A DNA stretch of 64,000 nt from Dyella dinghuensis (GTDB taxonomy: Bacteria; Pseudomonadota; Gammaproteobacteria; Xanthomonadales; Rhodanobacteraceae). Under the pieces are notes generated by a model, which saw only the letters and a program-made list of their open reading frames with translations, did no database searches and had not been told where the DNA came from. Where the stretch lies: positions 620,001 to 684,000 of the forward strand of contig NZ_RYZR01000005.1 of NCBI RefSeq assembly GCF_003977615.1, given 5' to 3'. Position numbers and translations under genes: made by a program. Shown one piece after another: positions 20,287-27,844 of this stretch (its first letter is position 1; every line of letters begins with the position of its first letter).

Positions 20287-21036
20287 ATGAACAAACTGAT
20301 CCGCGCCCTGGCCGCGGCGCTGCTGGCTTCCGGCTGCTTGCTTTCCAGTGCCCATGCCAACGTCATCATCAGCGGCACGCGAGTGATCTTTCCGGCGCAG
20401 GACGGTGAGGTCGACGTGCGACTGACCAACCAGAACGCCACACCGGCATTGGTCGAGGCATGGATCGACAGCGGGGATCCGAAATCCACGCCGGACAAAG
20501 TGAACACCCCGTTCCTGATCACGCCGCCGCTGTTCCGTATGGAAGCGAACCGCGATCAGAGCCTGCGTATCCTGTTTACGCATAGCGAACAGCCGATGCC
20601 GGCTGATCGCGAATCGCTGTTCTACCTCAACGTGCTGGAAGTCCCGCCCAAGCCCAGCGGTCCGCAGTTTCAGGGCAAAAATTACATGCAGCTGGCGATT
20701 CGTTCGCGGCTGAAACTTTTCTATCGTCCTGCCGGTTTGGCGGGCGATCCGCAGAAAGCACCGAACGCACTCACCTTCAAGGCGGCCAACGACGCCGGGG
20801 TGGGCACGGTGGTGGTGCATAACCCCACGCCCTACTACGTCACGATCGGTCAGATCACGGTGACGGTTGGCGGCGTGTCGCACAAAGTGGACACCGGCAT
20901 GGTGGCACCGCTTTCGGATTTGCGTCTGGCCGTGTCGGATCTGAAGCAGGCGCCGAGCGCTGGCAGCGCGATCCAGTATGACTGCATCAACGACTACGGC
21001 GCTGACGTGGTCCTCAAAGGCAACGTAACGCCGTGA
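20287..21036 (+). CDS. Periplasmic pilus-assembly chaperone, PapD family
   Basis: A 249-residue periplasmic chaperone that donates its G1 strand to pilin subunits. A signal peptide ends near SSAHA|NVII. The subunit-anchoring Arg is in GTRVIFPAQ and the Lys in RSRLKLFYRP, with the FYLNVLEVPPKP motif of the F1-G1 region between them. The short F1-G1 loop suggests the FGS subclass. The gene overlaps the usher by 4 bases (GTGA), so translation is coupled. Confidence 0.93.
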   Translation: MNKLIRALAAALLASGCLLSSAHANVIISGTRVIFPAQDGEVDVRLTNQNATPALVEAWIDSGDPKSTPDKVNTPFLITPPLFRMEANRDQSLRILFTHSEQPMPADRESLFYLNVLEVPPKPSGPQFQGKNYMQLAIRSRLKLFYRPAGLAGDPQKAPNALTFKAANDAGVGTVVVHNPTPYYVTIGQITVTVGGVSHKVDTGMVAPLSDLRLAVSDLKQAPSAGSAIQYDCINDYGADVVLKGNVTP

Positions 21037-23834
21037 CGAATCGGCGCGCCACATGCCGACCTGGCCATTCATGGCCTGTGGCGTGTCGTCGCGCGCTTCT
21101 TTGCGTGGGTATCGCGGCTGCGTTGACGAGCTGGGCTGATGCGTCGCTGGCTGCCGCCGCCAATGGTGCGGATGCATCGGCCAGTCCCGCAGCAGCAAGC
21201 GGTGCAGATGCCAACGCCAGCAGCGGTTACGCCGATTTCGATCGCAATCTGCTCTCGGGCGCCGGTCAGAACACCACGGATCTCTCCCGCTTCGAACACG
21301 GCAATCCGGTACTGCCGGGTAGCTACAACACCGATATCTATCTCAACGATACGTGGGTCGGCCGCGGCGATGTGCGCTTTGCCATGACGGCTCCGAAAAC
21401 CAGCGCGGTACCGTGCGTGGATAGCAAGCTGCTCGACGTATTGGGCTTGCATCCGACCAAGCTGTCCGACGCGACCGTCGCACAACTGAAAGACCCGAAC
21501 GCGTGCGTGACCATCGGCAACGTGATCCCGGGCGCGACCATGGCGTTCGACATGACGGAGCTGCGACTGAATGTCGTCGTACCGCAGGCCTACATGAATC
21601 AGATGCCGCGCGGCTATGTCAGTCCGGAATATTGGGACGCGGGCGTGCCGGCGGCGATCTTGAACTACGACTTCAACAGCTACCGCAGCGACAGCAATGG
21701 CCAGTCGCAGACCACTTCGTACCTTGGATTGAACAGCGGCCTGAATATCGGCCCGTGGCATCTGCGCGAAGACGCCACCGTCAACTGGCAATCGGCCACG
21801 GCCAATAGTCCGGCGCGGATGGAATGGCAAAACATCCAGGCGTATGTGCAGCGCGATCTTCCCTCGATGCGAGCGCTGCTGACCATCGGCGATAGCTACA
21901 CCGACGGCGCAGTGTTCGACAGCTACGGCATCCGCGGTGTGCAGCTGGGCACCGATGATCGCATGTTGCCGCAATCGCTGCAGGGTTACGCCCCGCTCAT
22001 TCGTGGCGTCGCCAACACCAATGCCAAAGTCACCGTGCGCCAGAACGGCGTGCAGATCTATCAGACGACCGTCGCACCGGGTCCGTTTCAGATCAGCGAT
22101 CTGTATCCGACCGGTTACGGCGGCACGCTGGATGTCACGGTGACCGAAGCGGATGGTCATGTAACGACTTTCTCCGTGCCCTATGCCTCGGTCGCGCAAT
22201 TGCTGCGTCCCGGCATCACGCGTTTCGACATCGCCGTAGGTGAGCTGCGCGATGCGACGATCAATAACAAACCCGCCGTGGTGCAGGGCACGTTGCAGCA
22301 TGGCTTCAGCAATCTGTTGACCGGTTACGCCGGTATCGTCGGTTCGACCGGCTATGCCGCTGCGCTGATCGGCGCCGCGATCGACACACGCTACGGCGCT
22401 CTCGCGGTAGATCTCACGCAGGCAAACGCGCACATCCCCGGCTATTCGACGCAGTCCGGGCAGAGCATGCGGATCACGTACAGCAAAATCATTCCGTCGA
22501 CACAGACGACCTTCTCGGTCGCTGCCTATCGCTACTCCACGGGTGGCTTTCTCAGCCTCACGCAGGCCGCGCAGGCGCGCCAATATGCGCGCGAAGGCAT
22601 CAATGCCTTCGACTACGTACCCCCGTCGAATGTACCGACGATCGATGGCGTGCCGGAACAAAGCGTACTGACACCTGCGCAACAGGCAGCGCTCAACGGC
22701 ACGGCATTCACGACGAATCCGATTCTCTCCGCCACCGGCGTAGAGCGCCAGCGCAACAATTTCACGCTCTCGCTCAGCCAGCGTCTGGGACAAAGCGGCG
22801 GTTCGATCTATGCCAACGTCACCGCTAGCGACTATTGGAACACCACTGGCAACTCCACGCAGTTCCAGGTGGGTTACAACAATCATTTCCATCGGCTGAA
22901 CTTCGGCATTTCGGCGACGCGGTCGGTGACGCCGCTTGGCCGCTACGACAACGAATACTTCGTGAACTTCAGCCTGCCGCTGGGCTCAAGTCCACATGCG
23001 CCGACCTTCATGCTCAATGTCACGCATGACCAGCTCACCGGCTCGCAGGATCAGGCGATCCTGAATGGCACGCTCGGTTCGGACAACCAGTTCGACTACA
23101 GCGCAACCGGCACACACAGCGGCGATGGTGGCGGCAACTCGGGCAGCGTGAACGTGGGTTACCGCAGTCCGTACGCCGTGTTTAACGCCAGCTACGGCGA
23201 CGGCAGCGGTTACTCGCAGGCCTCTGCGGGCGTGACCGGTGTCATCGTCGCGCACCCGGGCGGCGTCACCTTCGGCCAACCGACCGGCGACACGATCGGC
23301 ATCGTCTACGTGCCGGGCGCCGCTGGCGCACAAGTGCAGAGCGCGCCTGGCGCACGCATCGACCACTTCGGCTATGCCGTGGTGCCTTATCTGACGCCTT
23401 ACAACCTCAACACCGTGCAGATCGATCCGAAGGGATTGCCGCTGGATGTACAGCTCGATGCGACAAGTGCGCAGGTGGCTCCGTATGAAGGCGCCGTGGT
23501 GATGCTGAAGTTCAAGACCGAGAATGGCCGTGCGATCATCGTGCACGCTACCTTGGAAAACGGTGAACCGCTGCCGTTCGGCGCGGAAGTTTTCAATGAG
23601 AAGGGAACGTCGCTCGGTGTGGTTGGCCAGGGCGGACAGATCCTGGTGCGCGGCGTCAATCAGTCCGGCCGATTGAGCGTACGCTGGGACGATAACGGCG
23701 CGGCCCAATCGTGCTCGTTCGACTATCAGCTTGCTCCGCGGGCCAAGGGCAAGAAGGCGAAAGCCTATAACGAGATCCAGGCAACCTGTACGCGTGTCGA
23801 CGCCGTCGCACAGGTCACGAGGAGTGGTACATGA
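21033..23834 (+). CDS. Outer-membrane fimbrial usher, FimD/PapC family
   Basis: A 933-residue outer-membrane assembly platform. After a signal peptide and an unusual Ala/Ser-rich stretch (about residues 38-65), the N-terminal usher domain begins (FDRNLLSGAGQNTTDLSRFE, GSYNTDIYLND). Then come the 24-strand barrel with plug region (IRGVANTNAKVTVRQNG, GPFQISDLYPTGYGGTLDVTV) and two C-terminal domains ending in a cysteine pair (SCSFDY and ATCTRV). Start is GTG at 21033, overlapping the chaperone stop; its stop overlaps the adhesin start by 4 bases. Length is within the usual range. Confidence 0.94.
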   Translation: MTNRRATCRPGHSWPVACRRALLCVGIAAALTSWADASLAAAANGADASASPAAASGADANASSGYADFDRNLLSGAGQNTTDLSRFEHGNPVLPGSYNTDIYLNDTWVGRGDVRFAMTAPKTSAVPCVDSKLLDVLGLHPTKLSDATVAQLKDPNACVTIGNVIPGATMAFDMTELRLNVVVPQAYMNQMPRGYVSPEYWDAGVPAAILNYDFNSYRSDSNGQSQTTSYLGLNSGLNIGPWHLREDATVNWQSATANSPARMEWQNIQAYVQRDLPSMRALLTIGDSYTDGAVFDSYGIRGVQLGTDDRMLPQSLQGYAPLIRGVANTNAKVTVRQNGVQIYQTTVAPGPFQISDLYPTGYGGTLDVTVTEADGHVTTFSVPYASVAQLLRPGITRFDIAVGELRDATINNKPAVVQGTLQHGFSNLLTGYAGIVGSTGYAAALIGAAIDTRYGALAVDLTQANAHIPGYSTQSGQSMRITYSKIIPSTQTTFSVAAYRYSTGGFLSLTQAAQARQYAREGINAFDYVPPSNVPTIDGVPEQSVLTPAQQAALNGTAFTTNPILSATGVERQRNNFTLSLSQRLGQSGGSIYANVTASDYWNTTGNSTQFQVGYNNHFHRLNFGISATRSVTPLGRYDNEYFVNFSLPLGSSPHAPTFMLNVTHDQLTGSQDQAILNGTLGSDNQFDYSATGTHSGDGGGNSGSVNVGYRSPYAVFNASYGDGSGYSQASAGVTGVIVAHPGGVTFGQPTGDTIGIVYVPGAAGAQVQSAPGARIDHFGYAVVPYLTPYNLNTVQIDPKGLPLDVQLDATSAQVAPYEGAVVMLKFKTENGRAIIVHATLENGEPLPFGAEVFNEKGTSLGVVGQGGQILVRGVNQSGRLSVRWDDNGAAQSCSFDYQLAPRAKGKKAKAYNEIQATCTRVDAVAQVTRSGT

Positions 23835-24919
23835 TGCATCGTTTCTTCAACCATGCTTCTCGATGCATCCAACTTTTTGGCCTGCTGTTGCTGGCGATCT
23901 TTGCGATCGGCTGGGCGCCGCGCGCTGCTGCCACCAATTGCACGGCCTCATCGGCGACACTCAGCTTCCCCGCCACCGTGTCCGTCCCAACGACTGCGGC
24001 GGTAGGAAGCACGCTGGCTTCGGGCAGCGCCACCATGACCTTTTCATGTACCGCCGTGTCGAAGAACAATACGCCGGCGACCATCCAGGCGGGCCAGTAT
24101 CTGGCCACGCTGGATCCCACCAACAATACGAACGGCCCTGGCATCACCTTCTCGACCGGCGTGTCCGGTCTCGCGGTGCTGGTCAATGGCAGCCCGGTTG
24201 CGACATCGAGCAACAGCGGCAATGCGAGTCTGGATGGCCCCACGAGTACCGCTGGTTACGTTCCAGGGTCCGTTTCGTGCACCACTAACAATTGCAGCGG
24301 CACGGTAACGGCAACCTACACGGCTACGCTGATCAAAACCGGACCGATTGCACCCGGCACCATACCCCAGATCAATCTGATTCCTTTCTGGTGGTATATC
24401 CCCGGAAACGGAAACGGGTATTCCACCAGCATGAGTTTGAATGCAAACCTCATCCTGCCGTCCATCGCTTTGACGGTGCCCAGCTGCACTCTCACTGCCG
24501 GCTCCCAAAATATCGCGGTGACGCTGCCGGGTGTCGCAGCGTCATCGTTAGCGACCACTGGGCAAGTGAACGGTAGAACCGGTTTCAGCATCGCGGTAAC
24601 AGGTTGCCCAACGAGCGTGACCCAGATCACCACGTATTTTTATGGCGGTAACATCGATACCGCCACTGGCAATCTGACCAACAATGGCTCGGCGACGAAT
24701 GTCGAAGTGCAGTTGTTGAATGGTTCCGGCGGCAGCGCAGCGGCACTCTCGGCGATCACGCTGACTGGCGCACAGGCGACGGCGCAGAATTCTTCGGTGT
24801 TCAACGTCAGCGGTGGCAATGCGACATTGAATTACTACGCGCAATACATCGCTTCAGGTGGCGCGGCGACTGCCGGCAGCGTCTCCACCAGCGTGACGTT
24901 CACGATTGCCTATCCGTAA
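23831..24919 (+). CDS. Two-domain fimbrial tip adhesin
   Basis: A 362-residue protein with a signal peptide ending near RAAAT and two domains. The N-terminal part (about 35-215) begins NCTASSATLSFPATVSVP and contains several Cys and Asn/Thr-rich loops, resembling spore-coat U/lectin-like domains. The C-terminal pilin domain (about 218-362) starts PSCTLTAGSQNIAVTLPG and ends FTIAYP with a penultimate Tyr. This arrangement and its last position in the operon fit a tip adhesin like FimH. The ligand is unknown. Confidence 0.85.
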   Translation: MMHRFFNHASRCIQLFGLLLLAIFAIGWAPRAAATNCTASSATLSFPATVSVPTTAAVGSTLASGSATMTFSCTAVSKNNTPATIQAGQYLATLDPTNNTNGPGITFSTGVSGLAVLVNGSPVATSSNSGNASLDGPTSTAGYVPGSVSCTTNNCSGTVTATYTATLIKTGPIAPGTIPQINLIPFWWYIPGNGNGYSTSMSLNANLILPSIALTVPSCTLTAGSQNIAVTLPGVAASSLATTGQVNGRTGFSIAVTGCPTSVTQITTYFYGGNIDTATGNLTNNGSATNVEVQLLNGSGGSAAALSAITLTGAQATAQNSSVFNVSGGNATLNYYAQYIASGGAATAGSVSTSVTFTIAYP

Positions 24920-25808: not shown

Positions 25809-26555
25809 TCAACGCGAGGAAATGTATTTCTCGCGACGGATTTGCGGCACGGGCAAACCGAAGTCCTTGAGCGTGTTGAACGCCGCGTCAACCATGTTGG
25901 GATTACCGCACAGGTAAGCGATATCCCTATCCGACGCAGGCACCAGTTCGGCCAGCACGCTTTGCACGTGGCCGTTGCGATCGCCAGGACGCGGCACGGC
26001 GCGCGGTTGGCGACTGAGGCAGCCGTGGAACATGAAACCTGGATGCGTCTGCGCGAAAACCTCGAATTCCTCGCCGTAGAGCAGCTCGGTTTCGTTACGC
26101 GCGCCGTAAAGCAAAACGACTTCGCGATTGCCTTGCGCCAGCAGTTTCTCGAACAGCGGCAGCATGGCGCGATACGGCGTCACGCCTGTGCCGGTGGCCA
26201 GCAGCAAGTAACGCGGGTGGGTGTCGGTGTCCTGCAAGCAGAAGCGGCCGTACGGACCGCTTGCCTCGATCGTGCCGCCGATTTCCAGCTCGCTCAGCAA
26301 CTTCGTTGCCGCGCCGCCATCGACGTAGCTCACGGCAATTTCGATCTGCTGCACCGGCGAGGTGCCATCGCCCACGCTGCCCACGGAGTAGCTGCGCTTG
26401 GTCGCGGTGCCATCTTCATAGTGGAAGTGAATCTGCAGGAATTGGCCCGGGATGAACGCCAGCGGCTGTCCGTCTACGCGCTCGAAAACCAGATGCCGGA
26501 CAGAAGGCGCCAGCATGCGGCTGTCGGCGAGGCGGAGGGTGAAATGTTCGGCCAT
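25809..26555 (-). CDS. fpr: Ferredoxin/flavodoxin-NADP+ reductase
   Basis: A 248-residue flavoenzyme that exchanges electrons between NADPH and ferredoxin or flavodoxin. The FAD-binding RSYSVGS motif is near residue 50, the GTGVTPYRAML nucleotide-binding motif near residue 120, LLYGARN follows, and CGNPNMVDAAF precedes the C-terminal REKYISSR. Its size and KRSYSV/CGNP order match the bacterial Fpr subclass. It is transcribed away from the structured RNA and ABC transporter region. Confidence 0.85.
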   Translation of the reverse strand: MAEHFTLRLADSRMLAPSVRHLVFERVDGQPLAFIPGQFLQIHFHYEDGTATKRSYSVGSVGDGTSPVQQIEIAVSYVDGGAATKLLSELEIGGTIEASGPYGRFCLQDTDTHPRYLLLATGTGVTPYRAMLPLFEKLLAQGNREVVLLYGARNETELLYGEEFEVFAQTHPGFMFHGCLSRQPRAVPRPGDRNGHVQSVLAELVPASDRDIAYLCGNPNMVDAAFNTLKDFGLPVPQIRREKYISSR

Positions 26556-26633
26556 TCAGGGGTTGCTCTGATCAAAACTGCGCGGGAAACAGTGCGTGCG
26601 CCCGGATGGACCGGTCCGCAGGACAAGGCCCGC

Positions 26634-26639
26634 TATAAT
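26634..26639 (+). promoter_or_regulatory. Perfect TATAAT -10 box of the structured RNA
   Basis: TATAAT at 26634-26639 is a perfect -10 hexamer in GC-rich surroundings. Transcription would start near 26645, at the 5' strand of the closing helix of the RNA. No good -35 is visible at 16-18 bases; the nearest TTGACA-like string (TGGACC, 26607) is 21 bases away, so an activator may be needed. Confidence 0.6.
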
Positions 26640-26644
26640 AAGGG

Positions 26645-26875
26645 TCCCGGACACTCCGATCTATTCTGCGCAGGCGGTGTGATCTCCAGAAGGCCCACGG
26701 GACGGCCGAGGACCCTCTGGAGATCACCCCTCACCGACGCGCTTGGGGTTGGCCCTGTCTGCCCGCATCTGTTCGGGTGCGACAGAGTGGCGCAGACCGC
26801 CGGTCTGCCCTAGCCAACACCCCAGCCGACGGCACTGCTCCTGCCGTGTGCGCAGAACGGATCCCGAGCGTCCTT
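26645..26875 (+). ncRNA. Candidate highly structured RNA (novel leader or ncRNA)
   Basis: About 230 nt between fpr and the YadG-like gene with many mutually compatible helices. P1 joins the ends: TTCTGCGCA (26664-26672) with TGCGCAGAA (26849-26857), plus GATC/GATC, CTC/GAG and GGAC/GTCC outside it. P2 is a perfect 12-bp stem, GTGATCTCCAGA (26679-26690) with TCTGGAGATCAC (26716-26727). P3 pairs GGGGTTGGC (26745-26753) with GCCAA-CA-CCCC (26813-26823) and encloses P3a (CTGTC/GACAG) and P3b (GCAGACC/GGTCTGC, loop GCC). P4 is ACGGCA/TGCCGT (26829-26847). A TATAAT box precedes it. It has no SRP, RNase P, tmRNA or known riboswitch core motif that I recognise. It could be a cis-acting leader of the ABC transporter or an independent RNA. 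Confidence 0.6.
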
Positions 26876-26893
26876 CCACTGATGGTGCAGTCC

Positions 26894-27844
26894 ATGTCCT
26901 CTACTCCCGCGCTTGTCGTCGACAATTTGCGCAAAACGTATGGAAACGGCGTCGAAGCGCTCAAAGGCGTCAGCCTGACGGTGCAACCCGGCGACTTCTT
27001 CGCCCTGCTGGGGCCCAATGGCGCCGGCAAGTCCACGCTGATCGGCATTCTCTCCTCGCTGGTGAATTCCACCTCGGGCGATGCGGAGGTCTTCGGCGTA
27101 TCGGTCAACAAACGCCGCAACGAGGCGATGAAGCTGATCGGCCTGGTGCCGCAGGAACTGAACTTCAATCAGTTCGAGAAGCCGTTCGATATCTGCGTGA
27201 ACGAAGCCGGTTTCTACGGCATCCCGCGCAAGATCGCTGCCGAACGCGCCGAGAAGTACCTCAACGAGCTGCGCCTGTGGGACAAGGCACAGCATCAGGC
27301 ACGCATGTTGTCCGGCGGCATGAAGCGCCGGTTGATGATCGCCCGCGCGATGATGAACGAGCCGCGCCTGCTGATTCTGGACGAACCCACCGCCGGCGTG
27401 GACATCGAGATCCGCCGTTCGATGTGGCAATTCATCAGCGGCATCAACGCAGCCGGCACCACGGTGATTCTCACCACGCATTACCTGGAAGAAGCCGAAC
27501 AGCTGTGCCGCAACATCGCGATCATCGATCACGGCAACATCGTCGAAAACACCACGATGAAGCGCCTGCTTTCCAAGCTCGACGTGGAAACCTTCGTACT
27601 CGATGTCGACAACGCCCCGTCACATCTGCCCACCGTGCCAGGCATGACGTTGCGCCGCATGGACGAACACACCATCGAAGCCGAAATGCCACGTACGCAG
27701 GCACTCAACACGCTGTTCGAGGTATTCAGTACCAGCGGCATCAGCGTGACCTCGATGCGCAATAAAACCAACCGTCTGGAAGAACTGTTCGTGCGACTCG
27801 TCGAACATGGCCGCCAAGAGCCGAGCAAGGAGAAAGTGGCGTGA
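26894..27844 (+). CDS. ABC transporter ATP-binding protein, YadG-like
   Basis: A 316-residue ATPase with Walker A GPNGAGKST at residues 40-48, signature LSGGMKRRLMIARAM, Walker B LLILDEPTAGVD and the switch His in LTTHYLEEA. A C-terminal extension of about 80 residues follows, as in YadG. It pairs with the permease that overlaps it by 4 bases. Two starts are possible, ATG at 26882 or 26894; neither has a clear Shine-Dalgarno sequence, which is unusual and may relate to the structured RNA just upstream. Cargo is unknown. Confidence 0.9.
   Translation: MSSTPALVVDNLRKTYGNGVEALKGVSLTVQPGDFFALLGPNGAGKSTLIGILSSLVNSTSGDAEVFGVSVNKRRNEAMKLIGLVPQELNFNQFEKPFDICVNEAGFYGIPRKIAAERAEKYLNELRLWDKAQHQARMLSGGMKRRLMIARAMMNEPRLLILDEPTAGVDIEIRRSMWQFISGINAAGTTVILTTHYLEEAEQLCRNIAIIDHGNIVENTTMKRLLSKLDVETFVLDVDNAPSHLPTVPGMTLRRMDEHTIEAEMPRTQALNTLFEVFSTSGISVTSMRNKTNRLEELFVRLVEHGRQEPSKEKVA

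Follow-up and report, generated by a model that had tools for sequence, protein, structure and literature searches.

The structured feature upstream of yadG in the window (the whole stretch of DNA that was analysed, 64,000 nucleotides) is a worn copy of a palindromic MITE, typically ~287 bp long, and not a stand-alone RNA gene. Our preferred reading, to which we give a probability of about 0.91, is that of a non-autonomous, palindromic, IS5-type MITE mobilised in trans into the yadG leader; its movement is proposed from its ends, its target sites and the existence of element-free sites, from which we also infer mobilisation in trans. The kind of element is an ordinary one. The family (Rhodanobacteraceae, IS5-type ends, two-armed palindrome) appears to be new as far as our searches reach, and it was found by name neither in Rfam nor in the literature among the matches listed. 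The features discussed are collected in Table 1.

Table 1. Coordinates of the element, its parts and its neighbours (positions in the window).
Feature	Position	Strand	Remarks
"fpr", ferredoxin/flavin reductase-type oxidoreductase	25809..26555	-	divergent neighbour; Pfam NAD_binding_1, FAD_binding_6
Probable lone remnant of another MITE end (GGGTTGCTCTGATCAAAACTGCGCGGG)	26560..26586	+	repeats the left end of the element in direct orientation (D1; 76% over 21 nt), from which its identity is deduced
TATAAT, yadG promoter	26634..26639	+	outside the element; same box in 16/16 genomes, 13 of them element-free
Element	26649..26873	+	diverged 225-bp MITE copy; limits by fit to full-length relatives, alignment A1 and BLAST matches
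P1 5' arm (left terminal inverted repeat)	26649..26678	+	pairs with 26843-26873; aligned to the ends of 22 other copies
P1 outward extensions	26649-26652/26870-26873, 26654-26656/26866-26868, 26658-26662/26859-26863		interrupted
P1 core	26664-26672 with 26849-26857	+	9 bp
P2 hairpin arm	26679..26728	+	stem 26679-26690/26717-26728, 12 bp; longer version in relatives
P3 hairpin arm	26734..26838	+	two inner hairpins; shortened and rearranged relative to relatives
P1 3' arm (right terminal inverted repeat)	26843..26873	+	from the fold, the 23-copy alignment A1 and the 67-copy consensus
yadG-type ABC transporter ATPase	26894..27844	+	Pfam ABC_tran; orthologues in 16/16 genus genomes; element in its leader

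The window copy folds with a minimum free energy of -127.7 kcal/mol (shuffled mean, -97.0; standard deviation, 4.9; z, -6.2), a value matched by 0 of 200 shuffles. The first-pass annotation had described a multi-helix fold with paired ends preceded by a TATAAT box, and both the box, just before the 5' end of P1, and every claimed helix are present. It had also put forward an alternative fold, the two strands of which, GGGTCC (26642-26647) and GGACCC (26710-26715), do occur, but the minimum-energy fold leaves them unpaired with each other. The opposite strand folds at least equally well (-140.4; z, -6.9), as it should in a palindrome, so the fold alone names no transcribed strand; the good predicted fold of that strand is itself a hint that the feature is palindromic and not a strand-specific RNA. 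The ends of the window copy are GGACACTCC ... GAGCGTCC, and the 3' arm of P1 stops 20 nt upstream of the ATG at 26894 and 8 nt upstream of a further in-frame yadG ATG at 26882. One P2 pair of the relatives, GTCC/GGAC, is CTCC/GGAG in the window copy, with both sides changed.

At gathering thresholds, Rfam returned 0 families across the 64-kb window, in which no tRNA or tmRNA was found either. Under permissive settings, the window and an intact copy drew only sub-threshold chance models of miRNAs and snoRNAs, those for the window being just eukaryotic miRNA models far under threshold. Known Rfam classes (rnpB, ssrA, ffs, 6S, riboswitches and others) were rejected as candidates, with no covariance-model score above the gathering threshold, in agreement with the earlier remark that no common class was apparent.

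We gathered 98 distinct end-bounded copies (42-378 bp; mode, ~287 bp), a set that required 15 of 18 complementary end bases and in which end pairing is not independent. Intact relatives share a common plan, with ends GGATGCTCTGATC...GATCAGAGCATCC and then two long hairpin arms. Queried by BLAST, the window copy matched unrelated sites elsewhere in its own genome, which holds six further full-length copies, and in 12 of 61 related genomes. A copy from a Dyella lipolytica contig (L074) matched 37 of 119 genomes, all 37 in the window's family, covering 16/16 genomes of the window's genus and 14 of 55 genera; several of the weakest of these 37 (e.g., G008, G069, G074 and G083; E, 1e-6 to 1e-3) may be fragments. 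Scanning named genomes for the pattern returned 52 stretches, chiefly under Dyella, Rhodanobacter or Frateuria titles; the stretch L063 was a chance match. The copy L042, from a record titled Eremiobacteraeota, is a true one, its coordinates matching those of a genome that is placed in the window's genus. Plasmid and phage records yielded no MITE matches (0/72,556 and 0/50,697, respectively). Crude ORF calling around 68 copies placed 22 in tandem, 12 in divergent and 6 in convergent contexts; another 11 lay at the edge of a locus, and 17 seemed to fall within an ORF, a class that is overcounted because N-masked elements carry no stops.

Several copies depart from the common plan. A palindromic repeat, GTAGGCTGGGAT...ATCCCAGCCTAC, is nested within some of them (L016, L110, L115 and L134), and a second nested palindrome (CTCGCTCCTCAAA... 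/ ...GAGGAGCGAGG) lies within others (L009, L018, L102, L103 and L112). In a minimal form of ~44 bp (L117; G010:C1, about 4735552), two ends stand back to back and TTA/TAG-type flanks are kept. Unpaired GGATGCTCTGATC-type ends were sought in three genomes (G010, G012 and G002; up to 3 mismatches allowed), and the 20 regions found were truncated or diverged copies, with no transposase-bearing element seen among them. At two contig ends of G012 (L125 and L126), an identical, different interior adjoins the GGATGCTCTGATC end; this may be one end of an IS that is otherwise missing from the assembly.

The flanks of the copies point to an IS5-type target. Direct 4-bp flanks, mostly CTAG or TTAA, were found at 33 of the 98 copies against 12.9 expected by shuffling, 32 of the 33 being palindromic (CTAG/TTAA), so that direct and inverted flanks are indistinguishable there. 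Both flanks were CTAG in 21/98 copies and TTAA in 11/98, and flank complementarity ended beyond 4 bp. The window copy, flanked by TCCC / TTCC, has no recognisable target duplication. Away from yadG, one clean pair of occupied and empty sites was found (L021 versus L070).

Searching seven genomes of the genus for DDE_Tnp_1 revealed, in G003, an IS of 1196 bp that is bounded on both sides by GGATGCTCTGA; its transposase reached 309 bits against the NCBIfam model transpos_IS5_4 (cut-off, 140) but is interrupted by a stop. Intact 1188-bp relatives of this IS, in G032 and G140, have the same GGATGCTCTGA ends and, like it, YTAR duplications; relatives of the G003 IS occurred in 18 of 87 family genomes, and G032 carries both the IS5-family IS and MITE matches in one genome. 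One IS end and the commonest MITE end of G012 are identical at 22 of 23 bases. The window's own genome gave 0 matches to the IS5-type transposase at E 1e-60, and within the genus one of six genomes drawn carried the transposase (G003; copies stop-interrupted or partial). An IS630/Tc1-type MITE with a TA-only target was considered and rejected, DDE_3 (PF13358) being present in 0/7 genus genomes and full IS copies carrying 4-bp YTAR duplications (16/19).

Comparison of yadG leaders gives the element-free state of the window's site. In 13 of the 16 genus genomes, the leader runs ~27 nt from TATAAT to the start codon and contains no element, with CTAG present in 6 of the 13; in the window genome, 254 nt separate the box from the yadG ATG. 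The TATAAT box, earlier taken for the promoter of the RNA, is shared by occupied and element-free leaders alike (Table 1). At the same site, G003 has a 35-nt hairpin built from two MITE ends and G007 a decayed MITE piece. The yadG genes nearest to the window's (G013, G010, G001 and G006; 90-91%) are all element-free, which makes it probable, on sequence grounds, that the three elements are separate insertions at a favoured site. The first-pass annotation had read the missing ribosome site before yadG as a sign of RNA control; in element-free relatives yadG is preceded by the same short GGTGCAG-CC(C)-ATG stretch, which likewise lacks a clear ribosome site, and since this sequence is native, the element is not the cause of that absence.

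Two further observations concern the neighbourhood. The probable remnant between fpr and the yadG promoter was not seen by eye in the shorter intergenic regions L143, L145 and L147. Positions 21033-24919 hold a long ORF resembling a fimbrial usher and then an adhesin-like ORF, as read from the translation.

For the window copy, we propose the following history. The GGATGCTCTGATC ends of the MITE were most likely recognised in trans by a transposase of the IS5 family, and the MITE would have gone into a YTAR site within the short leader that separates the start codon of yadG from the conserved TATAAT. The copy would then have decayed, with loss of a clear target duplication and shortening of P2 and P3. 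If the yadG promoter is still active, the element is predicted to be transcribed as most of the 254-nt leader, with P1 closing P2 and P3. The gene is probably still translated, because the native pre-start sequence is kept and lies outside P1. The likeliest effects on yadG would be on leader stability (e.g., as a target of a double-strand RNase) or a modest polarity, not ligand sensing; by analogy with Correia and ERIC elements, they would most likely be indirect, through leader folding and RNase attack.

Covariation had been named beforehand as a check on the RNA, and it is very strong among relatives but is no proof of RNA function, as mobile copies at unrelated sites show it too. In alignment A1 (23 copies), from which the structure was itself derived, 97.4% of cells pair, compared with 34-39% for slid partners, and both sides have changed in 55 of 103 pairs versus 19.0 in shuffles (0/500 shuffles as high); helix 1 (31 pairs) has 97.1% of its cells paired. 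Across 67 distinct full-length copies, a set filtered on end complementarity and in which the outer 18 P1 pairs are not independent, within-copy Watson-Crick pairing was 92.8%, versus a mean of 79.4% (maximum, 81.0%) with the 3' side swapped in from another copy. Same-site occupied pairs between species (5 site pairs, both directions) showed 106 doubles that kept pairing against 23.8 expected, along with 10 pairing-breaking doubles and 69 single changes. These pairs were not accepted as proof of in-place compensatory evolution, the partners being mutually nearest in just 1 of 10 directed comparisons; as partners are so seldom nearest, independent insertion at the same site is possible.

The arms may be coupled through selection acting on how the MITE folds in a transcribed or single-stranded state that it needs in order to spread, rather than through their correction at the level of mutation; we give this slightly less than an even chance. 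In the 67-copy alignment, G-T cells in P2 far outnumber A-C cells (239 versus 12; 22 columns versus 2), the pattern that folding of one strand, as RNA or as single-stranded DNA, would produce, although strand-biased C-to-T mutation could also give such a bias, and the balance of G-T and A-C in P1 (30 versus 37 cells; 8 versus 9 columns) and in the columns of P3 (11 versus 11) indicates no strand preference there. A stepwise route further predicts more single than double changes among close copies, and over all 104 pairs there were 48 singles versus 14 doubles below 6% divergence (188 versus 116 at 6-9%). Selection on the fold sits less well with the flanking base beyond the element, which joins the pairing.

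That base bears on the other explanation, a one-step DNA correction (template switching in the hairpin) that keeps the arms complementary and reaches one base into the target-site duplication. We regard such correction as unlikely, if far from negligible. Template switching is a published route for keeping hairpins paired (PMC8794818). The base flanking the end (target base) was complementary in 51 of 53 MITE copies versus 6 of 19 IS copies. Among full IS copies flanked by TA on both sides, 16 of 19 had direct duplications, 12 of those 16 non-palindromic, versus 1 of 33 among the direct flanks of MITEs (Fisher, MITE versus IS, 3e-8 for target-base complementarity and 2e-7 for non-palindromic duplications). 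Either the MITEs choose palindromic targets, or the arms are corrected after insertion as far as one base of the duplication; the mixed MITE flanks (CTAG/CTAA in 4 copies, TTAA/TTAG in 2) fit post-insertion correction. Doubles at low divergence also exceed chance. When the count was confined to 82 of the 104 pairs, those with 90% or more Watson-Crick pairing, a choice that drops mismatch-rich columns and is made over copy pairs that are not independent, doubles exceeded singles from 6% divergence on (89 versus 48 at 6-9%; 9 versus 15 at 3-6%; 0 versus 2 below 3%). The lead of singles at low divergence over all 104 pairs lowered our probability for arm correction, against which there also stands the G-T bias of P2, which a pure DNA process does not predict and which P1 does not show.

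Whichever process couples the arms, we hold to a MITE inserted in the yadG leader and consider it improbable that its fold has been domesticated as a cis-regulatory leader, maintained by selection and now in control of yadG translation or decay. The element sits exactly between the yadG promoter and the start codon, as such a role would have it, but 13 of the 16 genus genomes do without one; the different MITE remnants at the same place in G003 and G007 also speak for it, yet these and the window element are unlike in size and sequence. Despite its divergence the window copy retains P1 and P2, with some pairs changed on both sides, whereas against the 67-copy consensus 5 of 31 cells of P1 are unpaired, P2 has 4 unpaired and 17 gapped of 39, and P3 has 4 unpaired and 11 gapped. 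Least probable is the reading proposed at first, a separate non-coding RNA gene driven by a promoter of its own, for which the strong fold, the adjoining TATAAT and the covariation could be cited: the box belongs to yadG in 16/16 genomes, a scan found neither a sigma-70 hexamer pair nor a site resembling an intrinsic terminator, the strands fold equally well, and the feature is one of many dispersed palindromic mobile copies that lie at unrelated sites, with transposon-type ends of the IS5 type and matching target sites.

The candidate RNA is explained away, and the case exposes a trap: palindromic mobile repeats show covariation of textbook quality, with which they can satisfy the standard criterion for functional RNA. 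If arm correction were true, covariation, the gold standard for functional RNA, would arise here without RNA function, and the MITEs would provide a record of the process that occurs naturally and can be counted. The coupled arms and target base make a concrete data set for deciding whether selection or template switching keeps hairpins paired, and the repeated insertions in the yadG leader form a simple natural experiment on leader insertions.

Among known systems, the family is closest to IS5-family IS (NCBIfam transpos_IS5_4) and the MITEs derived from them, with which it shares ends of the GGATGCTCTGA type (22/23 end bases), the YTAR target and the 4-bp duplication; unlike these IS, it has no transposase, is almost fully palindromic and bears two long inner hairpin arms with no counterpart in the IS ends looked at. 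RUP and bcr1 are structured bacterial MITEs. Like them, and like ERIC and Correia elements, the present copies are short, dispersed and palindromic, with transcripts predicted to fold, but they differ in ends, target site and host range, and P1 in this family closes off two long, separate arms, with coupled changes in the arms. According to a review (PMC10969869), RNase III cleaves Correia-bearing mRNAs, and ERIC has effects through RNase E. In hairpins maintained by template switching (PMC8794818), too, the arms stay complementary via coordinated changes; the hairpins treated there are RNA genes, whereas ours is a mobile DNA repeat that includes the target-site base and is a candidate case.
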